Virus record (IMG/VR): IMGVR_UViG_3300009093_000128
Location: 1 to 22,229 of that record
Strand: one strand, 5' to 3'
From: a virus
DNA: 22,229 nucleotides
The notes under the pieces are model-generated. The model was given only the letters and a program-made list of their open reading frames with translations, was not told where the DNA came from and did not search any database. Both the position numbers and the translations under genes were made by a program. This document shows, piece after piece, positions 6,441 through 22,126 of this stretch; position 1 is the stretch's first letter, and each line of letters opens with the position of its first letter.

Positions 6441-6527
6441 TGTGGGGTGGCGAAACTGGTAGCCGCGCCGGACTTAAAATCCGGTTTAGGAGTAATCCTA
6501 TTGAGGGTTCGATCCCCTTCCCCTCCG
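6441..6527 (+). tRNA. tRNA-Leu (anticodon TAA), acceptor stem imperfect
   Basis: A class II tRNA fold can be drawn: D-stem GCG/CGC with loop AAACTGGTAGC, anticodon stem CCGGA/TCCGG with loop CTTAAAA (anticodon TAA), a long variable arm closed by AGGA/TCCT, and T-arm GAGGG-TTCGATC-CCCTT. The acceptor is the weak point: TGTGGGG against CCCCTCC leaves mismatches at pairs 1:72 and 3:70, and the discriminator would be G. The other three arms are sound, so it is a real or recently decayed tRNA. It is encoded on the plus strand between minus-strand phage genes, unlike the other tRNAs in the window. UUA is a rare codon in GC-rich genes, so a supply role for AT-rich phage genes is plausible. Confidence 0.8.
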
Positions 6528-6530
6528 CAA

Positions 6531-8447: not shown

Positions 8448-9770
8448 TTAATCGGGTCTTGCACCTGTGATGGTTTTGAGGTTTAAAGCCTTTCGTTTCT
8501 GAAAAAGGTCGATTAGCGCCAGCTTTTTGGCAATGCGTAACCGGTTAGGTTCATCCTGGTGACAATCCGGATCCGCGGGCCACTTGCCGCTGCCATAGGC
8601 TTCGATCATCCGAAGTTCGGCGGCATTGTTGGTGCCCTCCAGCTGCTTTGCCCGCATCAGCGCCGCCCGGTTCACAAACCTTTCGTCAAGCTCGATCAGC
8701 CCTTCCTTCAGCAGGAAATCGGTATGCCGCTCGGAAATATCCTTCGACTGCAGCTGGTCATTCAGGAAGAGCGCGTAAAGGCCAGCGATCGTCTTAATCG
8801 TGACCGGCGGAGCAGACGGCGCGCCGGCGGGCGTATCGGACTTATCGTAGTTGCCCTCCAGTAACTTCAGGTAGTTGCTTTCGTTTTCGAGGATCCAGTC
8901 GAAGGAAAACCACTTTCGGCTCAGAAGGAAATCGGAAGCCTGCCCGGCGCGCGTGAGGATTTTGACGAAATCGAACTCCTTTTCCTTCAGGCGCGTAGCC
9001 AGTTTCTTTTTCCGGGTATCGGAATGCCGGGAAACCTGCGGGATCTTGCGATCGGCCGCAAAAAGATTCCACAGTTCGGCGTACGGTTCGATAAAGACCG
9101 GCCTATACTCGGTGATGAAGGCGATAATCGCATTTTTGTTCCTCGGAACCCCCTTCCAGATAACCTTTGGATCGACCGGCGGGGCGGGAGCCCCGTCACC
9201 GCCGGCAGGCGGAGTATCACTCTCATCTTCTCTACTCTCTTCTGTTCTATTCTTCTCTTCTCTTCTCTGTGAATTCTTCGGTGGAAAAATTGAATTGTTC
9301 GGAGGAACAATTAATTTCTTCATTGGAAGAACTGCTATATTCCTCGGATGTTCCTCAGAAAAGTCCAGAAGCAGCCATTCCGCGCACATATTAAACCGGG
9401 AGTCCTTAGCACGCCTTTCAGACGTCGCAATAAGGAAAGTCTCCTGCATCATGTCGCTGGTAAGTATCCCAAACGAATCCGCCACGCGCCTGTCGAATAG
9501 GCCACGACGGACACACCCGGCGATCACTTCCTGGATGGTGCCCAGCTTTTTCTTACAGTATTCCGAGGCGAAGAGCTCCAGCTCGTCCTTGTCATTCATA
9601 TCAAAGTAATACCCCCACTTTCCATAGGCGTAATCGATCAGGGCGTGCCAGATATAATAACCGTCACTGTCGAACTCATTGAAAAGCAGCCGGACCTTCG
9701 GATGAAGGATGTGGCCGGCGTCCATGCGATAAAAAGAAATACCTTGTTTGACGGGTCTGCCCCTGCCCAT
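8448..9770 (-). CDS. Replication initiator-like protein (Lin1244/DUF4373-type N-terminus)
   Basis: A 440-aa protein. Residues about 8-120 (FYRMDAGHILHPKVRLLFNE, then FDSDGYYIWHALIDYAYGKW) match the Lin1244/Lin1753-like N-terminal domain (DUF4373) found in phage replication proteins. A disordered Pro/Glu/Arg-rich linker (about 155-205) follows. A second globular part around residues 225-310 (KLATRLKEKEFDFVKILTRA, WFSFDWILENESNYLKLLEG) is typical of the C-terminal half of phage initiators. It probably binds the origin and recruits helicase. The linker DNA contains three 21-bp iterons (9271-9333) and a pyrimidine-rich tract, the arrangement of lambda O with its internal origin. ATG start at 9768-9770. 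Confidence 0.8.
   Translation of the reverse strand: MGRGRPVKQGISFYRMDAGHILHPKVRLLFNEFDSDGYYIWHALIDYAYGKWGYYFDMNDKDELELFASEYCKKKLGTIQEVIAGCVRRGLFDRRVADSFGILTSDMMQETFLIATSERRAKDSRFNMCAEWLLLDFSEEHPRNIAVLPMKKLIVPPNNSIFPPKNSQRREEKNRTEESREDESDTPPAGGDGAPAPPVDPKVIWKGVPRNKNAIIAFITEYRPVFIEPYAELWNLFAADRKIPQVSRHSDTRKKKLATRLKEKEFDFVKILTRAGQASDFLLSRKWFSFDWILENESNYLKLLEGNYDKSDTPAGAPSAPPVTIKTIAGLYALFLNDQLQSKDISERHTDFLLKEGLIELDERFVNRAALMRAKQLEGTNNAAELRMIEAYGSGKWPADPDCHQDEPNRLRIAKKLALIDLFQKRKALNLKTITGARPD
9219..9269. repeat. Polypyrimidine/polypurine tract beside the iterons
   Basis: About 50 bases on the plus strand are almost entirely C/T, built from repeated TCTTCTCT-like units. They encode the Arg/Glu-rich stretch SQRREEKNRTEESREDESD of the initiator linker. 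The tract abuts the 21-bp iterons. Purine-rich strand asymmetry next to iterons is common at phage origins and could serve as the unwinding or primer region. Confidence 0.6.
9271..9333. repeat. Three 21-bp iterons, candidate phage replication origin
   Basis: Three adjacent 21-bp units at 9271-9291, 9292-9312 and 9313-9333. Units 1 and 2 agree at 18 of 21 positions; unit 3 agrees with unit 1 at 15 of 21. Each unit is itself an inverted repeat TTNTTC-N4-GAANAA: AATTCTTC-GGTG-GAAAAATT at 9272-9291, the perfect AATTGTTC-GGAG-GAACAATT at 9293-9312, and TTCTTC-ATTG-GAAGAA at 9316-9331. Centres are exactly 21 bp apart, two helical turns. They sit in the linker of the initiator gene. Origin function is inference from this layout. 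Confidence 0.7.
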
Positions 9771-10497: not shown

Positions 10498-12339
10498 TTA
10501 GTCGGCGGTCCCTACATCGTCGCTTTGATCGCCGTATTTTTTCTTGTCGTCTTCGGTGACAGGCAGACCGTAGGTCGTAAGCTCCTGGCCGAGGTGATTT
10601 TTGCGGGTAACGCGAGCTTTGGGAGGGGCGGATTTGCCGCCCTTCTTTTTTGCCTGCGCCTTTGAGCCTTTGGTGGAAGCTGCCTTTTTATCGGCCTTCT
10701 CTTTCACCTGGCTCTCCAGTTCCTTTTTCTCGGCCTCGAGGGCAGTTATCCGTTTCTCCGTCCGCGCGGTGCGCTTTTTCGTTTCCTCAGCCTGCTCCGC
10801 CTCTAGCTCGTCGATAAATTTGTCGAGCTTATAGCCGGGCAGTTTGATCATGGGCATAAGCACCCTGGCGCCCTCACTCTCAGCGGGCGATATCCCTCCT
10901 TTCAGTTCGTGGATGGTGAAGAGGCGAAGAAGGTGGGTCAGCTGCTCTTCCGTTACCTTCCAGTTCTCAAACTTCATCCCATCCTCGTCATCATCAAACC
11001 CGAACCAATAGTCCTCCCGGCTTTTTGTAAGTCCCGCAGCGAAGACAGCCTCATCCTCGAAGTCCCCATTCATTTTTTTGATCAGAGCATAGGCCATGGC
11101 GTTGCGCTCCGCCTGGAGAGTGGTGGTATAATTCAGGTTGCACCCCCTGAAAATCGCCGGATCATCCAGTTGCTTTTTAATTGGCTCCCATATTTTTTGG
11201 GAATCCAGCTCGATCTTTCGGCCAGCCCGCTGGTTTATGCCGGCGATCTCCTCCTCTATGGCCTTGACCGTTCGTTTTGCAGGTGTCCCGTCTGCGGCTT
11301 TGGCCGTGGCCTGCACCTCAACATAGATCGTTGTGATTTCCCCGCGGGCATTGCCATCAAGACGGAGAGCTTTAACTGCACCTTTGTATTTCCCTGTTGA
11401 ATACCACTTGTATTTGGAGTCATCGAGTATTGGGACGCTCATGTCCTTGATCAGCTTCTTGACGGCGGCGGGGAGCTTACCGGGATCATCTGCAATTAGA
11501 TGTACCTTAGGCTTGTTCTCAATAGTATCCTGCAACTGACGCATGAAGAAGGCATCTTGCTTAGCCCCGAAGCAGTCAGCATCGAAGCATCGGTCGTCAT
11601 CCTTCAGATCGGTAAAGAGGAGATTCGCACACCCGCTACGCTTCTGACAGGTAGTGCAGGGCCCCGCCTTCGGTACCAGGGTAGAGTCATCTTTTTTGAA
11701 ACGGGCGGAGGAGAGTTGGTGCAGCAAATTTCGGGATATCCAGTCCTGCAGCTCACCGATGGAGGTCATTTGGAACTCCTCATCCTTATACTCCTTTCTC
11801 AGCCTCTTTTGATCCTCCTGCCGTAGCCTGCAGATCACAAAGGCCTGCCCCACAGAAAGAAGGTTTTTTTTAAACGCCTTGTGAAATTCGAGTAGTAAGT
11901 CTGTGAGTTTGAGCCTATGGACCACAAATTCGAGTTTCTTGCCGAACCTGGCAGCAATATCCTCCACGGTATAGTTCCGATCCCGGATCAGCGAGCCGAA
12001 CGCAATGGCCTCATCCAGCGGATGGACATCCTTACGCTGCAGGTTCTCGGTGATCTGCAGCTCGAGGATCTCTTCGTCGGAAACATCCTTTACGTTGGCC
12101 GGGATCTTTTTCAAACCAGCGAGGCCTGCGGCCACGTTCCGGCGGTGACCGAAGATAAGTTCGTAGCGGCCGGCCTGAGCGGGGTGCGGCCGCACCAGCA
12201 CGGCCTGCAGGAGGCCATTGGCCTTAATGGAATTGGAGAGTTCGATCACATCGGCGTCGGTCGGCGTCACCGGTTCGACGTCGCGGTAGTTGCTGATCAT
12301 ATCTATATCAGCAAGAGGAATGAGTTTTAGTTCTGTCAT
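10498..12339 (-). CDS. ParB/Srx-fold protein with cysteine cluster, 613 aa
   Basis: The N-terminal 200 residues are a ParB-type domain. They begin IPLADIDMISNYRD; the nucleotide-pocket arginine motif GHRRNVAAG is at 64-72; and the second motif ENLQRKDVHPLDEA is at 98-111, followed by the HTH region TVEDIAARFGKKLEFVVHRL. In ParB these bind CTP and centromere-like DNA. A cysteine cluster near residues 225-265 (CTTCQKRSGCANL, then DDDRCFDADCF) probably binds zinc. The C-terminus is a Lys/Glu coiled coil ending in a Lys/Ala-rich basic tail. No ParA gene is present, so a specific-DNA-binding or regulatory role fits better than partition. At 613 aa it is about twice the length of a chromosomal ParB. 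Its start overlaps the previous stop (ATGA). Confidence 0.82.
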   Translation of the reverse strand: MTELKLIPLADIDMISNYRDVEPVTPTDADVIELSNSIKANGLLQAVLVRPHPAQAGRYELIFGHRRNVAAGLAGLKKIPANVKDVSDEEILELQITENLQRKDVHPLDEAIAFGSLIRDRNYTVEDIAARFGKKLEFVVHRLKLTDLLLEFHKAFKKNLLSVGQAFVICRLRQEDQKRLRKEYKDEEFQMTSIGELQDWISRNLLHQLSSARFKKDDSTLVPKAGPCTTCQKRSGCANLLFTDLKDDDRCFDADCFGAKQDAFFMRQLQDTIENKPKVHLIADDPGKLPAAVKKLIKDMSVPILDDSKYKWYSTGKYKGAVKALRLDGNARGEITTIYVEVQATAKAADGTPAKRTVKAIEEEIAGINQRAGRKIELDSQKIWEPIKKQLDDPAIFRGCNLNYTTTLQAERNAMAYALIKKMNGDFEDEAVFAAGLTKSREDYWFGFDDDEDGMKFENWKVTEEQLTHLLRLFTIHELKGGISPAESEGARVLMPMIKLPGYKLDKFIDELEAEQAEETKKRTARTEKRITALEAEKKELESQVKEKADKKAASTKGSKAQAKKKGGKSAPPKARVTRKNHLGQELTTYGLPVTEDDKKKYGDQSDDVGTAD

Positions 12340-18237: not shown

Positions 18238-18308
18238 AGGGGGAAACAGGATTCGAACCTGTATCGGCGAGTTTGGAATCCGCCATTCTGCCGTTGAACT
18301 ATTCCCCT
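18238..18308 (-). tRNA. tRNA-Trp (anticodon CCA), 71 nt
   Basis: The minus strand folds as a cloverleaf: acceptor AGGGGAA/TTCCCCC (pair 1:72 mismatched, others good), D-arm GTTC-AACGGCA-GAAT, anticodon arm GCGGA-TTCCAAA-CTCGC, T-arm ACAGG-TTCGAAT-CCTGT. With T33 the anticodon reads CCA (Trp). The last pair of the anticodon stem (A-C) is mismatched and the one before it is G-T. The alternative anticodon TCC (Gly) does not give a paired stem. Confidence 0.85.
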
Positions 18309-18565
18309 ATGTGGCCGCCGGCATCACCGACGACCGTACCCCACCGAGATCAGCGGGGACTTTAACCCCTAAATTCTAAACCGTAGAAAAACTTTTAAAA
18401 GGACCGGCAGGCTACCAGTGGATTTCTGCCCCATTCCGGTCGTATATATAGAAGCGAGTCGCTGAAAAATGACCGCCGGACTCGCGATCCGACGGTCGGC
18501 CAATCTTCCGAGTGAATTGCTGCCGGGCTTCACCATTCCGGACAGCGTCCGCCAATACGGCGGAG
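18309..18565 (-). other. Inter-tRNA spacer with hairpins, no gene seen
   Basis: No credible ORF in either direction. On the minus strand it contains several GC-rich hairpins: TCCGCC-GTATT-GGCGGA right after the tRNA-Phe; a GACCGG...CCGGTC pairing about 18401-18440 followed by CTTTTAAAAG, which could be a weak terminator; and CCCCGC-N..-GTGGGG near 18340-18357. No complete additional tRNA can be folded. Confidence 0.4.
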
Positions 18566-18638
18566 TGGACGAACCTGGGATCGAACCAGGGACGCGCGGC
18601 TCTTCAAGCCGCCGCTCTACCAGCTGAGCTATTCGTCC
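18566..18638 (-). tRNA. tRNA-Phe (anticodon GAA), 73 nt
   Basis: A perfect cloverleaf on the minus strand: acceptor GGACGAA/TTCGTCC (7 of 7), D-arm GCTC-AGCTGGTA-GAGC, anticodon arm GCGGC-TTGAAGA-GCCGC (anticodon GAA), T-arm CCTGG-TTCGATC-CCAGG, discriminator A. This is the best-formed tRNA in the window and surely functional. No CCA is encoded at the 3' end (it reads A-C-T). Confidence 0.96.
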
Positions 18639-18769
18639 AGTTCCCGCACGTCTGCGGGATTCCCTGTTGTCTCAGGGCGATTGGAATCCGTCTTTCTGGT
18701 ACGCGGCCCAGGGTGATTCTCCAACCCCGCACCTAATCCAGGAGATCGAAACTTCCGCCAATCGGTTTG
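18639..18769 (-). other. Inter-tRNA spacer with two hairpins
   Basis: No gene seen. Two perfect short hairpins lie 5' to the tRNA-Phe on the minus strand: TCCCGCA-GACG-TGCGGGA and CCCTG-AGACAA-CAGGG. They could be processing signals of the tRNA precursor or parts of a small RNA. Confidence 0.4.
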
Positions 18770-18851
18770 TGGAGAATGAGAGGGTCGAACTCCCACCCGC
18801 TGCAGTGTCCGATTATACCCAGCAGCCGCACTACCCTTGTGCTAATTCCCC
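18770..18851 (-). tRNA. tRNA-like gene with expanded 18-nt anticodon loop, 82 nt
   Basis: All canonical arms are present on the minus strand: acceptor GGGGAAT/ATTCTCC (one G-T pair), D-arm GCAC-AAGGGTA-GTGC, T-arm GGGAG-TTCGACC-CTCTC, discriminator A, anticodon stem GCTGC/GCAGC perfectly paired. The loop closed by that stem is 18 nt (18804-18821) instead of 7, which accounts for the extra 11 nt in the gene. No standard 7-nt loop with T33 can be drawn, so no isotype is assigned. Weak extra pairing inside the loop is possible. It could be a decayed tRNA, an RNA needing splicing or processing, or a tRNA mimic. Confidence 0.7.
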
Positions 18852-21794: not shown

Positions 21795-22001
21795 ATGAAT
21801 CAGGATCTTATTTTCTTTTACATGGTAGGCGCTGCCGTAAGTGCCGGCGTTCTTTACCTAATTATTGCAGGCGCCACCAGATCAAAACAGCGGGCGCTAT
21901 ACGAATGGGCTCAGCTGGAATTGCTCGCCAAGATCGCCCGGGCTCAGGGTGTACCCGAAGAGGAGATAAAGGTCACATTCAAGGCGATAAAAACGGATTA
22001 A
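21795..22001 (+). CDS. Small single-TM membrane protein, 68 aa
   Basis: ATG 21795-21797 follows the DUF4468-like stop by 14 bases and probably forms an operon with it. MNQDLIFFYMVGAAVSAGVL continuing to YLIIAGA is one transmembrane helix (about residues 7-27) with a short N-terminus. A basic turn follows, and then a charged amphipathic helix (YEWAQLELLAKIARAQGVPE, EEIKVTFKAIKTD). The upstream frame to 21660 is antiframe. Function unknown. Confidence 0.7.
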   Translation: MNQDLIFFYMVGAAVSAGVLYLIIAGATRSKQRALYEWAQLELLAKIARAQGVPEEEIKVTFKAIKTD

Positions 22002-22024
22002 CCCGGAACACCACCCGGAACACC
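22001..22024. repeat. Tandem 12-bp direct repeat near the attachment end
   Basis: ACCCGGAACACC occurs twice in immediate succession, starting at the stop codon of the small membrane gene. It lies about 100 bases from the attachment site. It could be an arm-type site for the recombinase or excisionase, but a two-copy repeat is weak evidence. Confidence 0.5.
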
Positions 22025-22126
22025 GACCCCGAAAACTGACCGAAGATGACCTATATAGGTTCTTTTGATTATATTCAACCGCCTCTCTGTCAGTAAAAGC
22101 AGAATTTGAAACCGTGACCTGCTGCC

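Follow-up and report, generated by a model that had tools for sequence, protein, structure and literature searches.

The window analysed here is a viral record of 22,229 bases from IMG/VR (IMGVR_UViG_3300009093_000128), and the virus is one that infects Bacteroidota. Its genes include those for a terminase and a portal protein, and it has a replication and recombination block in which most genes lie on the minus strand. Members of this block encode a Holliday-junction resolvase, an initiator, a ParB-like protein, an exonuclease, an RNase H and a Sak4-like ATPase. The ParB-like protein (613 aa; 10498-12339, minus strand) is encoded upstream of the initiator; it has ParB_N and HTH_ParB domains and a long C-terminal part without assignment. 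Four tRNA genes (Leu, Trp, Phe and Pro) are predicted within this 22-kb phage fragment, at 6441-6528 (+), 18238-18308 (-), 18565-18638 (-) and 18769-18851 (-). Close to its right-hand end, at 22001-22041, the window has a 13-bp unit (ACCCGGAACACCG) repeated 3.2 times.

The initiator gene (8448-9770, minus strand) encodes a protein of 440 aa belonging to the Lin1244_N/DUF4373 family (Pfam PF14297, E 6.7e-16). PF14297 is the sole Pfam match at E <= 0.001, and a RepA_N domain was not found. Matches among the PHROGs are annotated as 'DNA replication initiation' (2.8e-25) and 'replication initiation protein' (8.9e-23); phrog_345, 'replication initiation O-like', matches residues 28-311 (E 8e-10), where Pfam reports Lin1244_N only. 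The Lin1244_N domain is N-terminal (residues 13-106; 9453-9734, minus strand) and is presumed to be the iteron-binding domain. AlphaFold2 gives an ordered and confident N-domain (approximately residues 20-148), a disordered linker (residues 152-197; 9180-9317, minus strand; pLDDT <50) and a partly ordered C-terminal half. This half includes a DnaD-like helicase-loader module (residues 221-312; 8835-9110, minus strand; phrog_10469, E 1.2e-11). Neither the full-length model nor that of the N-domain gave a significant match in fold searches; the VIA-align rows are mostly winged-helix regulators, all weak (Z at most 5). A sequence search for a solved relative returned none, and for the N-domain no solved DNA-binding initiator gave a convincing match.

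Approximately 440 bp into the initiator gene, in the part encoding the interdomain linker, there are three regularly spaced palindromic iterons of the form TTNTTC-N4-GAANAA. These are iteron 1 (TTCTTC-ATTG-GAAGAA; 9316-9331, TTCTTCATTGGAAGAA), iteron 2 (TTGTTC-GGAG-GAACAA; 9295-9310, TTGTTCGGAGGAACAA) and iteron 3 (TTCTTC-GGTG-GAAAAA; 9274-9289, TTCTTCGGTGGAAAAA), the last of which adjoins the purine tract described below. Each unit consists of a 16-bp palindrome and an AT-rich 5-bp spacer, and the period is exactly 21 bp. A degenerate fourth unit (9337-9352; AACATCCGAGGAATAT on the minus strand) matches 6 of the 10 consensus positions and keeps the 21-bp register; two related viral contigs, L005 and L012, have an intact TTC-N4-GAA at this place. 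TTNTTC-N4-GAANAA occurs three times in the whole window, always within the array. Dinucleotide shuffles (n=100) contained 0.05 matches on average and never reached three, and Tandem Repeats Finder gave the 21-bp array (9270-9328) the top score among the tandem arrays of the window. A sequence-only reading had described three 21-bp palindromes inside the disordered linker of a DUF4373-type initiator; the repeats, their spacing and their coordinates were correct, and Pfam (Lin1244_N) and AlphaFold2 agree with their placement. Half-matching palindromes at 9136-9149 and elsewhere were rejected; they are probably due to chance, since the bare core NTTCNNNNGAAN occurs 12 times in the window.

Read on the coding strand, the purine tract (9219-9268, minus strand) begins 5 bp after iteron 3 and consists of ten pentamers: AGAGA AGAGA AGAGA AGAAT AGAAC AGAAG AGAGT AGAGA AGATG AGAGT. 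In the coding direction, the 5-bp spacer between the last iteron and the pentamers ends in CAC. Tandem Repeats Finder reports a 5/15-bp array at 9219-9268, adjoining the iteron array. The lag-5 score of the tract is 0.80, a value reached by none of 200 synonymous shuffles, versus 0.51 at lag 3; the repeat is thus not trinucleotide. The polypyrimidine tract noted earlier beside the iterons is real: no other 40 bp of the window are as rich in pyrimidines (92.5%). It has an AT content of 60%, compared with 48% for the gene. The region 9224-9323, which spans tract and iterons, is the least stable 100 bp of the gene and stands at the 98.6th percentile of the window for instability; several stretches of the window are less stable than this (six at the 100-bp scale). 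The iterons therefore have an AT-rich neighbour that is predicted to melt easily. The tract is presumed to be an unwinding or single-strand element. Its pentamer period and its spread through the family, which were missed by the sequence-only reading, are the more informative parts.

Relatives of the initiator were found by protein sequence search in viral contigs (L005, L012, L013, L014, L016 and L029) and in prophages of Chitinophagales and Sphingobacteriales. The prophages are those of a Chitinophagales MAG (L017), Paraflavitalea (L018), Flavihumibacter (L019), Chitinophaga tropicalis (L020), Desertivirga (L021) and Pedobacter (L022), together with L041, which shares its family with L022. 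A DNA-pattern scan contributed L008, which the protein search recovered as L015. The clade set comprises 14 genes including that of the window; L014 and L020 are identical in sequence. Palindromes of the TTC-N4-GAA type are present in the matching linker of all 14 genes, with a 21-bp register in all but L021 (22 bp) and L029 (33 bp). Comparison of this linker in relatives had been proposed as a check on the origin reading, and it comes out in favour of that reading. The L005 initiator shares 69% identity with that of the window in the N-terminal part and has an unrelated C-terminal half; the same N-domain and iterons thus occur with a different partner, which indicates that they travel as a module. 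The C-terminal swap in L005 sets in immediately past the linker that overlaps the putative origin, as though a recombination joint were marked by it. L007, L009 and L010, which the pattern scan also returned, are not initiators and appear to reflect chance or low complexity; an initial scan of genome contigs found nothing.

The pentamer tract extends well beyond this clade. Of 42 family genes, 30 surpass the synonymous null for lag-5 self-similarity at P <= 0.015 and 33 do so at P <= 0.03; nearly all of these have their lag-5 peak in the linker. The aligned pentamer reads A(94%)-A/G-A(94%)-G-N. Tracts of the family average 83% purine and 73% AT; the genes average 58% AT. Where the tract is clear, window-clade genes have 21 bp from the start of the last unit to that of the first pentamer after it; the distance is 23 bp in L041 and L022. 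L016 and L012 show a weak lag-5 signal only, and in L052 and L048 no pentamer tract was detected by the lag-5 test. In another Lin1244_N gene, L051, the linker has an array with a 6-bp period (peptide TETETETE) in place of the pentamers, preceded by 7-aa repeats (KTEVITG). A DNA-only scan of viral contigs, with 25 bases of the tract as the query and without protein information, returned at least 120 stretches. Lin1244_N open reading frames contained 76 of the 80 loci examined; two were cut by a contig end and two were odd. Exact copies of the tract are found outside a recognisable Lin1244_N gene in L159 (6138-6162, minus strand) and L145 (4077-4101, plus strand); one lies behind a short HNH-like frame and the other in a domain-less open reading frame overlapping the reverse strand of another gene.

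Spacing of the repeats was surveyed in the 105 bp preceding the tract in 93 non-redundant genes. A strong 21-bp repeat is present in 43 of them and in none of the control stretches of those genes; other peaks are at 11, 22, 32-33 and 42 bp, with few besides. These spacings (11, 21-22, 32-33 and 42 bp) are whole helical turns, and 11, 22 and 32 bp do not amount to whole codons. The iterons vary in sequence from one branch of the family to another, whereas the spacing rule and the tract are retained, as would be expected if every initiator recognises sites of its own along a single helical face. As a check, the lag test recovered the known iterons of lambda O at lag 20 (0 of 300 shuffles). It gave no signal in the rep gene of TP901-1, which is known to contain an origin; the test therefore misses some kinds of origin.

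The repeats are constrained as DNA. Relatives keep the 21-bp palindromes while the residues change, and the frame itself differs in L041 and L022, where the palindrome TTCCCGGGAA is shifted in codon phase and encodes S-R-E instead of P-x-N/K; constraint on the peptide cannot account for this. Synonymous codons were shuffled within each gene and three chained units were scored. The window gives a P value of 0.014 and L005, L008, L012, L013, L016, L017 and L041 give values of 0.0002-0.006; the window gene alone yields just the former, and the case gains its strength from relatives with a common ancestry. Across ten genes, the last base of codon 1 is T in 33 of 33 units (12.7 expected) and that of codon 3 is G in 33 of 33 (15.7 expected), with z values of 7.9 and 6.7 which are somewhat inflated, as the units were picked partly by motif; ten amino acids are nevertheless encoded at codon 3. 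The coding repeat had been explained as a by-product of constraint on the DNA, and this explanation holds. It is very improbable that the linker heptads and QSKVKESK are selected as peptide and that the DNA repeats are secondary. Peptides of the relatives are indeed alike (VPPNN/PPKN and QSKVKESK), the tract holds a single codon phase, and part of the lag-21 signal survives synonymous shuffling. Fixed third positions beside varying residues argue against selection on the peptide, however, and the palindromes in the other codon frame contradict it; periods of 5, 11 and 22 bp do not fit codons, and the predicted disorder of the linker also speaks against it. A function in the initiator mRNA, with the palindromes forming hairpins for attenuation or translation control, has next to no probability in our estimation. 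The window stretch does fold far better than its shuffles (z -6.7), but folding is not conserved: z ranges from +0.6 to -5.5 within the clade, and in other family members the median is -1.3 while repeat spacing is kept. The hairpin in the window exists because the DNA sites are palindromic.

We regard the array as very probably a phage replication origin of the lambda type, located within the initiator gene, with iterons bound by the N-domain beside an unwinding tract. Initiators that bind iterons often regulate themselves, and the sites might instead serve mainly in autoregulation or copy control, with replication starting elsewhere. SPP1 offers a precedent of sorts, since another origin, oriR, lies outside gene 38 (PMC6316719); a site within the gene need not be the sole origin. 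We consider this role unlikely for the present array, as the iterons are regularly paired with a purine pentamer tract at a distance that hardly varies, a pairing for which a repressor site would have no use, and the site lies some 440 bp within the gene, away from the promoter. The iterons could also be thought of as parS-like centromere sites for the ParB-like protein of 10498-12339. A 16-bp palindrome is the size of parS, and the window encodes a protein with ParB_N and HTH_ParB domains. This role is disfavoured to the point of being hardly credible, because five of eight iteron-bearing viral contigs (including contigs of 60 kb and 55 kb) have no ParB_N match, with the reservation that contigs are possibly incomplete; moreover, the iteron sites are always within the initiator gene. 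ParB_N is present in the L012 and L014 contigs as well as in the window.

The arrangement has parallels in several known systems. The origin of phage lambda lies inside gene O, where four iterons, each an inverted repeat, occupy the central part of the gene and adjoin an AT-rich tract (PMC7466680). The window shares inverted-repeat iterons in mid-gene beside an AT-rich tract; it differs in the family of the N-terminal domain and in its regular 21-bp spacing, which is 20-24 bp in lambda. No significant pentamer period was detected in lambda, where the best lag-5 window is directly after the iterons (P 0.11). In SPP1, the initiator binds direct repeats at oriL in its own gene 38, next to an AT-rich unwinding element (PMC6316719); by published description this matches the in-gene repeats and adjoining AT-rich element of the window, although SPP1 differs in having a second origin. 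In the RepA_N initiator of pSK41, the repeat boxes of the origin are central in rep and are bound by the N-domain, the origin-encoded central linker is dispensable as protein, and both end domains are DnaD-like (PMC5703833). The central position in the gene is shared by the putative origin of the window, but pSK41 is a Firmicutes plasmid with a RepA_N protein, whereas the window protein was matched to Lin1244_N in Pfam. ORF49 of Listeria phage A118, a DnaD-like loader, likewise has in-gene repeats followed by an array of short units; it differs in the unit of the array (8 bp; lag 8, P 0.003), the spacing (approximately 23 bp; P 0.013) and the N-domain. This array is L081 6029-6075, with an 8-bp period of AATTAAAG-like units. 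Other initiator families may thus have a tract period of their own.

Assuming an origin at this position, dimers of the Lin1244_N domain would occupy three, perhaps four, of the palindromic iterons. Because the iteron centres are 21 bp apart, which is two helical turns, the bound dimers would stack on a single face of the DNA, much like the lambda O-some. The stacked assembly could then strain or melt the pentamer tract beside it, a stretch of higher AT content with a strong purine/pyrimidine asymmetry. A single strand of the tract would subsequently be kept open, the C-terminal DnaD-like half would recruit the helicase, and replication would start here. The linker peptide would act as a spacer, with a sequence dictated by the DNA elements encoded in it.

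A further suggestion concerns the tract (A-[A/G]-A-G-N, repeated along the coding strand), which might be a single-strand assembly element that a non-AAA+ initiator or its helicase loader reads in 5-nt steps, as an independently evolved phage counterpart of the DnaA-trios. We put this forward tentatively and think it rather doubtful. In the basal unwinding system of bacterial oriC, DnaA-boxes are combined with DnaA-trios, and a short repeated motif guides the initiator onto one strand (PMC8287927). The two arrangements are alike in that double-strand binding sites lie a short way from a brief motif that repeats; they differ in the period (three in oriC, five in the window) and in the initiator, which is DnaA in the former and a protein that is neither DnaA nor AAA+ in the latter, where the single-strand role is putative. 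If the suggestion is right, Lin1244_N origins would follow one grammar: initiator-specific iterons at helical-turn spacing, a short spacer ending in CAC or CGC, and then pentamers.

The lambda-like layout in another initiator family, as claimed by the sequence-only reading, is supported; an origin within the gene outside lambda O is not in itself new, given SPP1 oriL and the pSK41 ori. Three points appear to be new: the layout occurs throughout the Lin1244_N initiators, its spacing follows a rule of whole helical turns, and a pentamer tract accompanies it. In the literature searched, publications naming DUF4373, Lin1244 or PF14297 included none on replication origins, as judged by title and abstract, which is weak evidence.

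The layout recurs throughout a large and little-studied family of phage initiators. A sequence rule of this kind could locate the origins of many DUF4373/Lin1244 phages and prophages of Bacteroidota and Firmicutes without experiments, and it is directly testable with a DNA fragment of 80-130 bp. The pentamer tract would provide a new case for DNA opening by initiators other than DnaA, and small origin fragments would be useful for vectors in poorly tractable Bacteroidota. Seven Lin1244_N genes are present in a single genome of the same phylum (G924), which suggests that several related elements, each with an origin of its own, may coexist; this genome could be used to test iteron divergence as avoidance of cross-talk.
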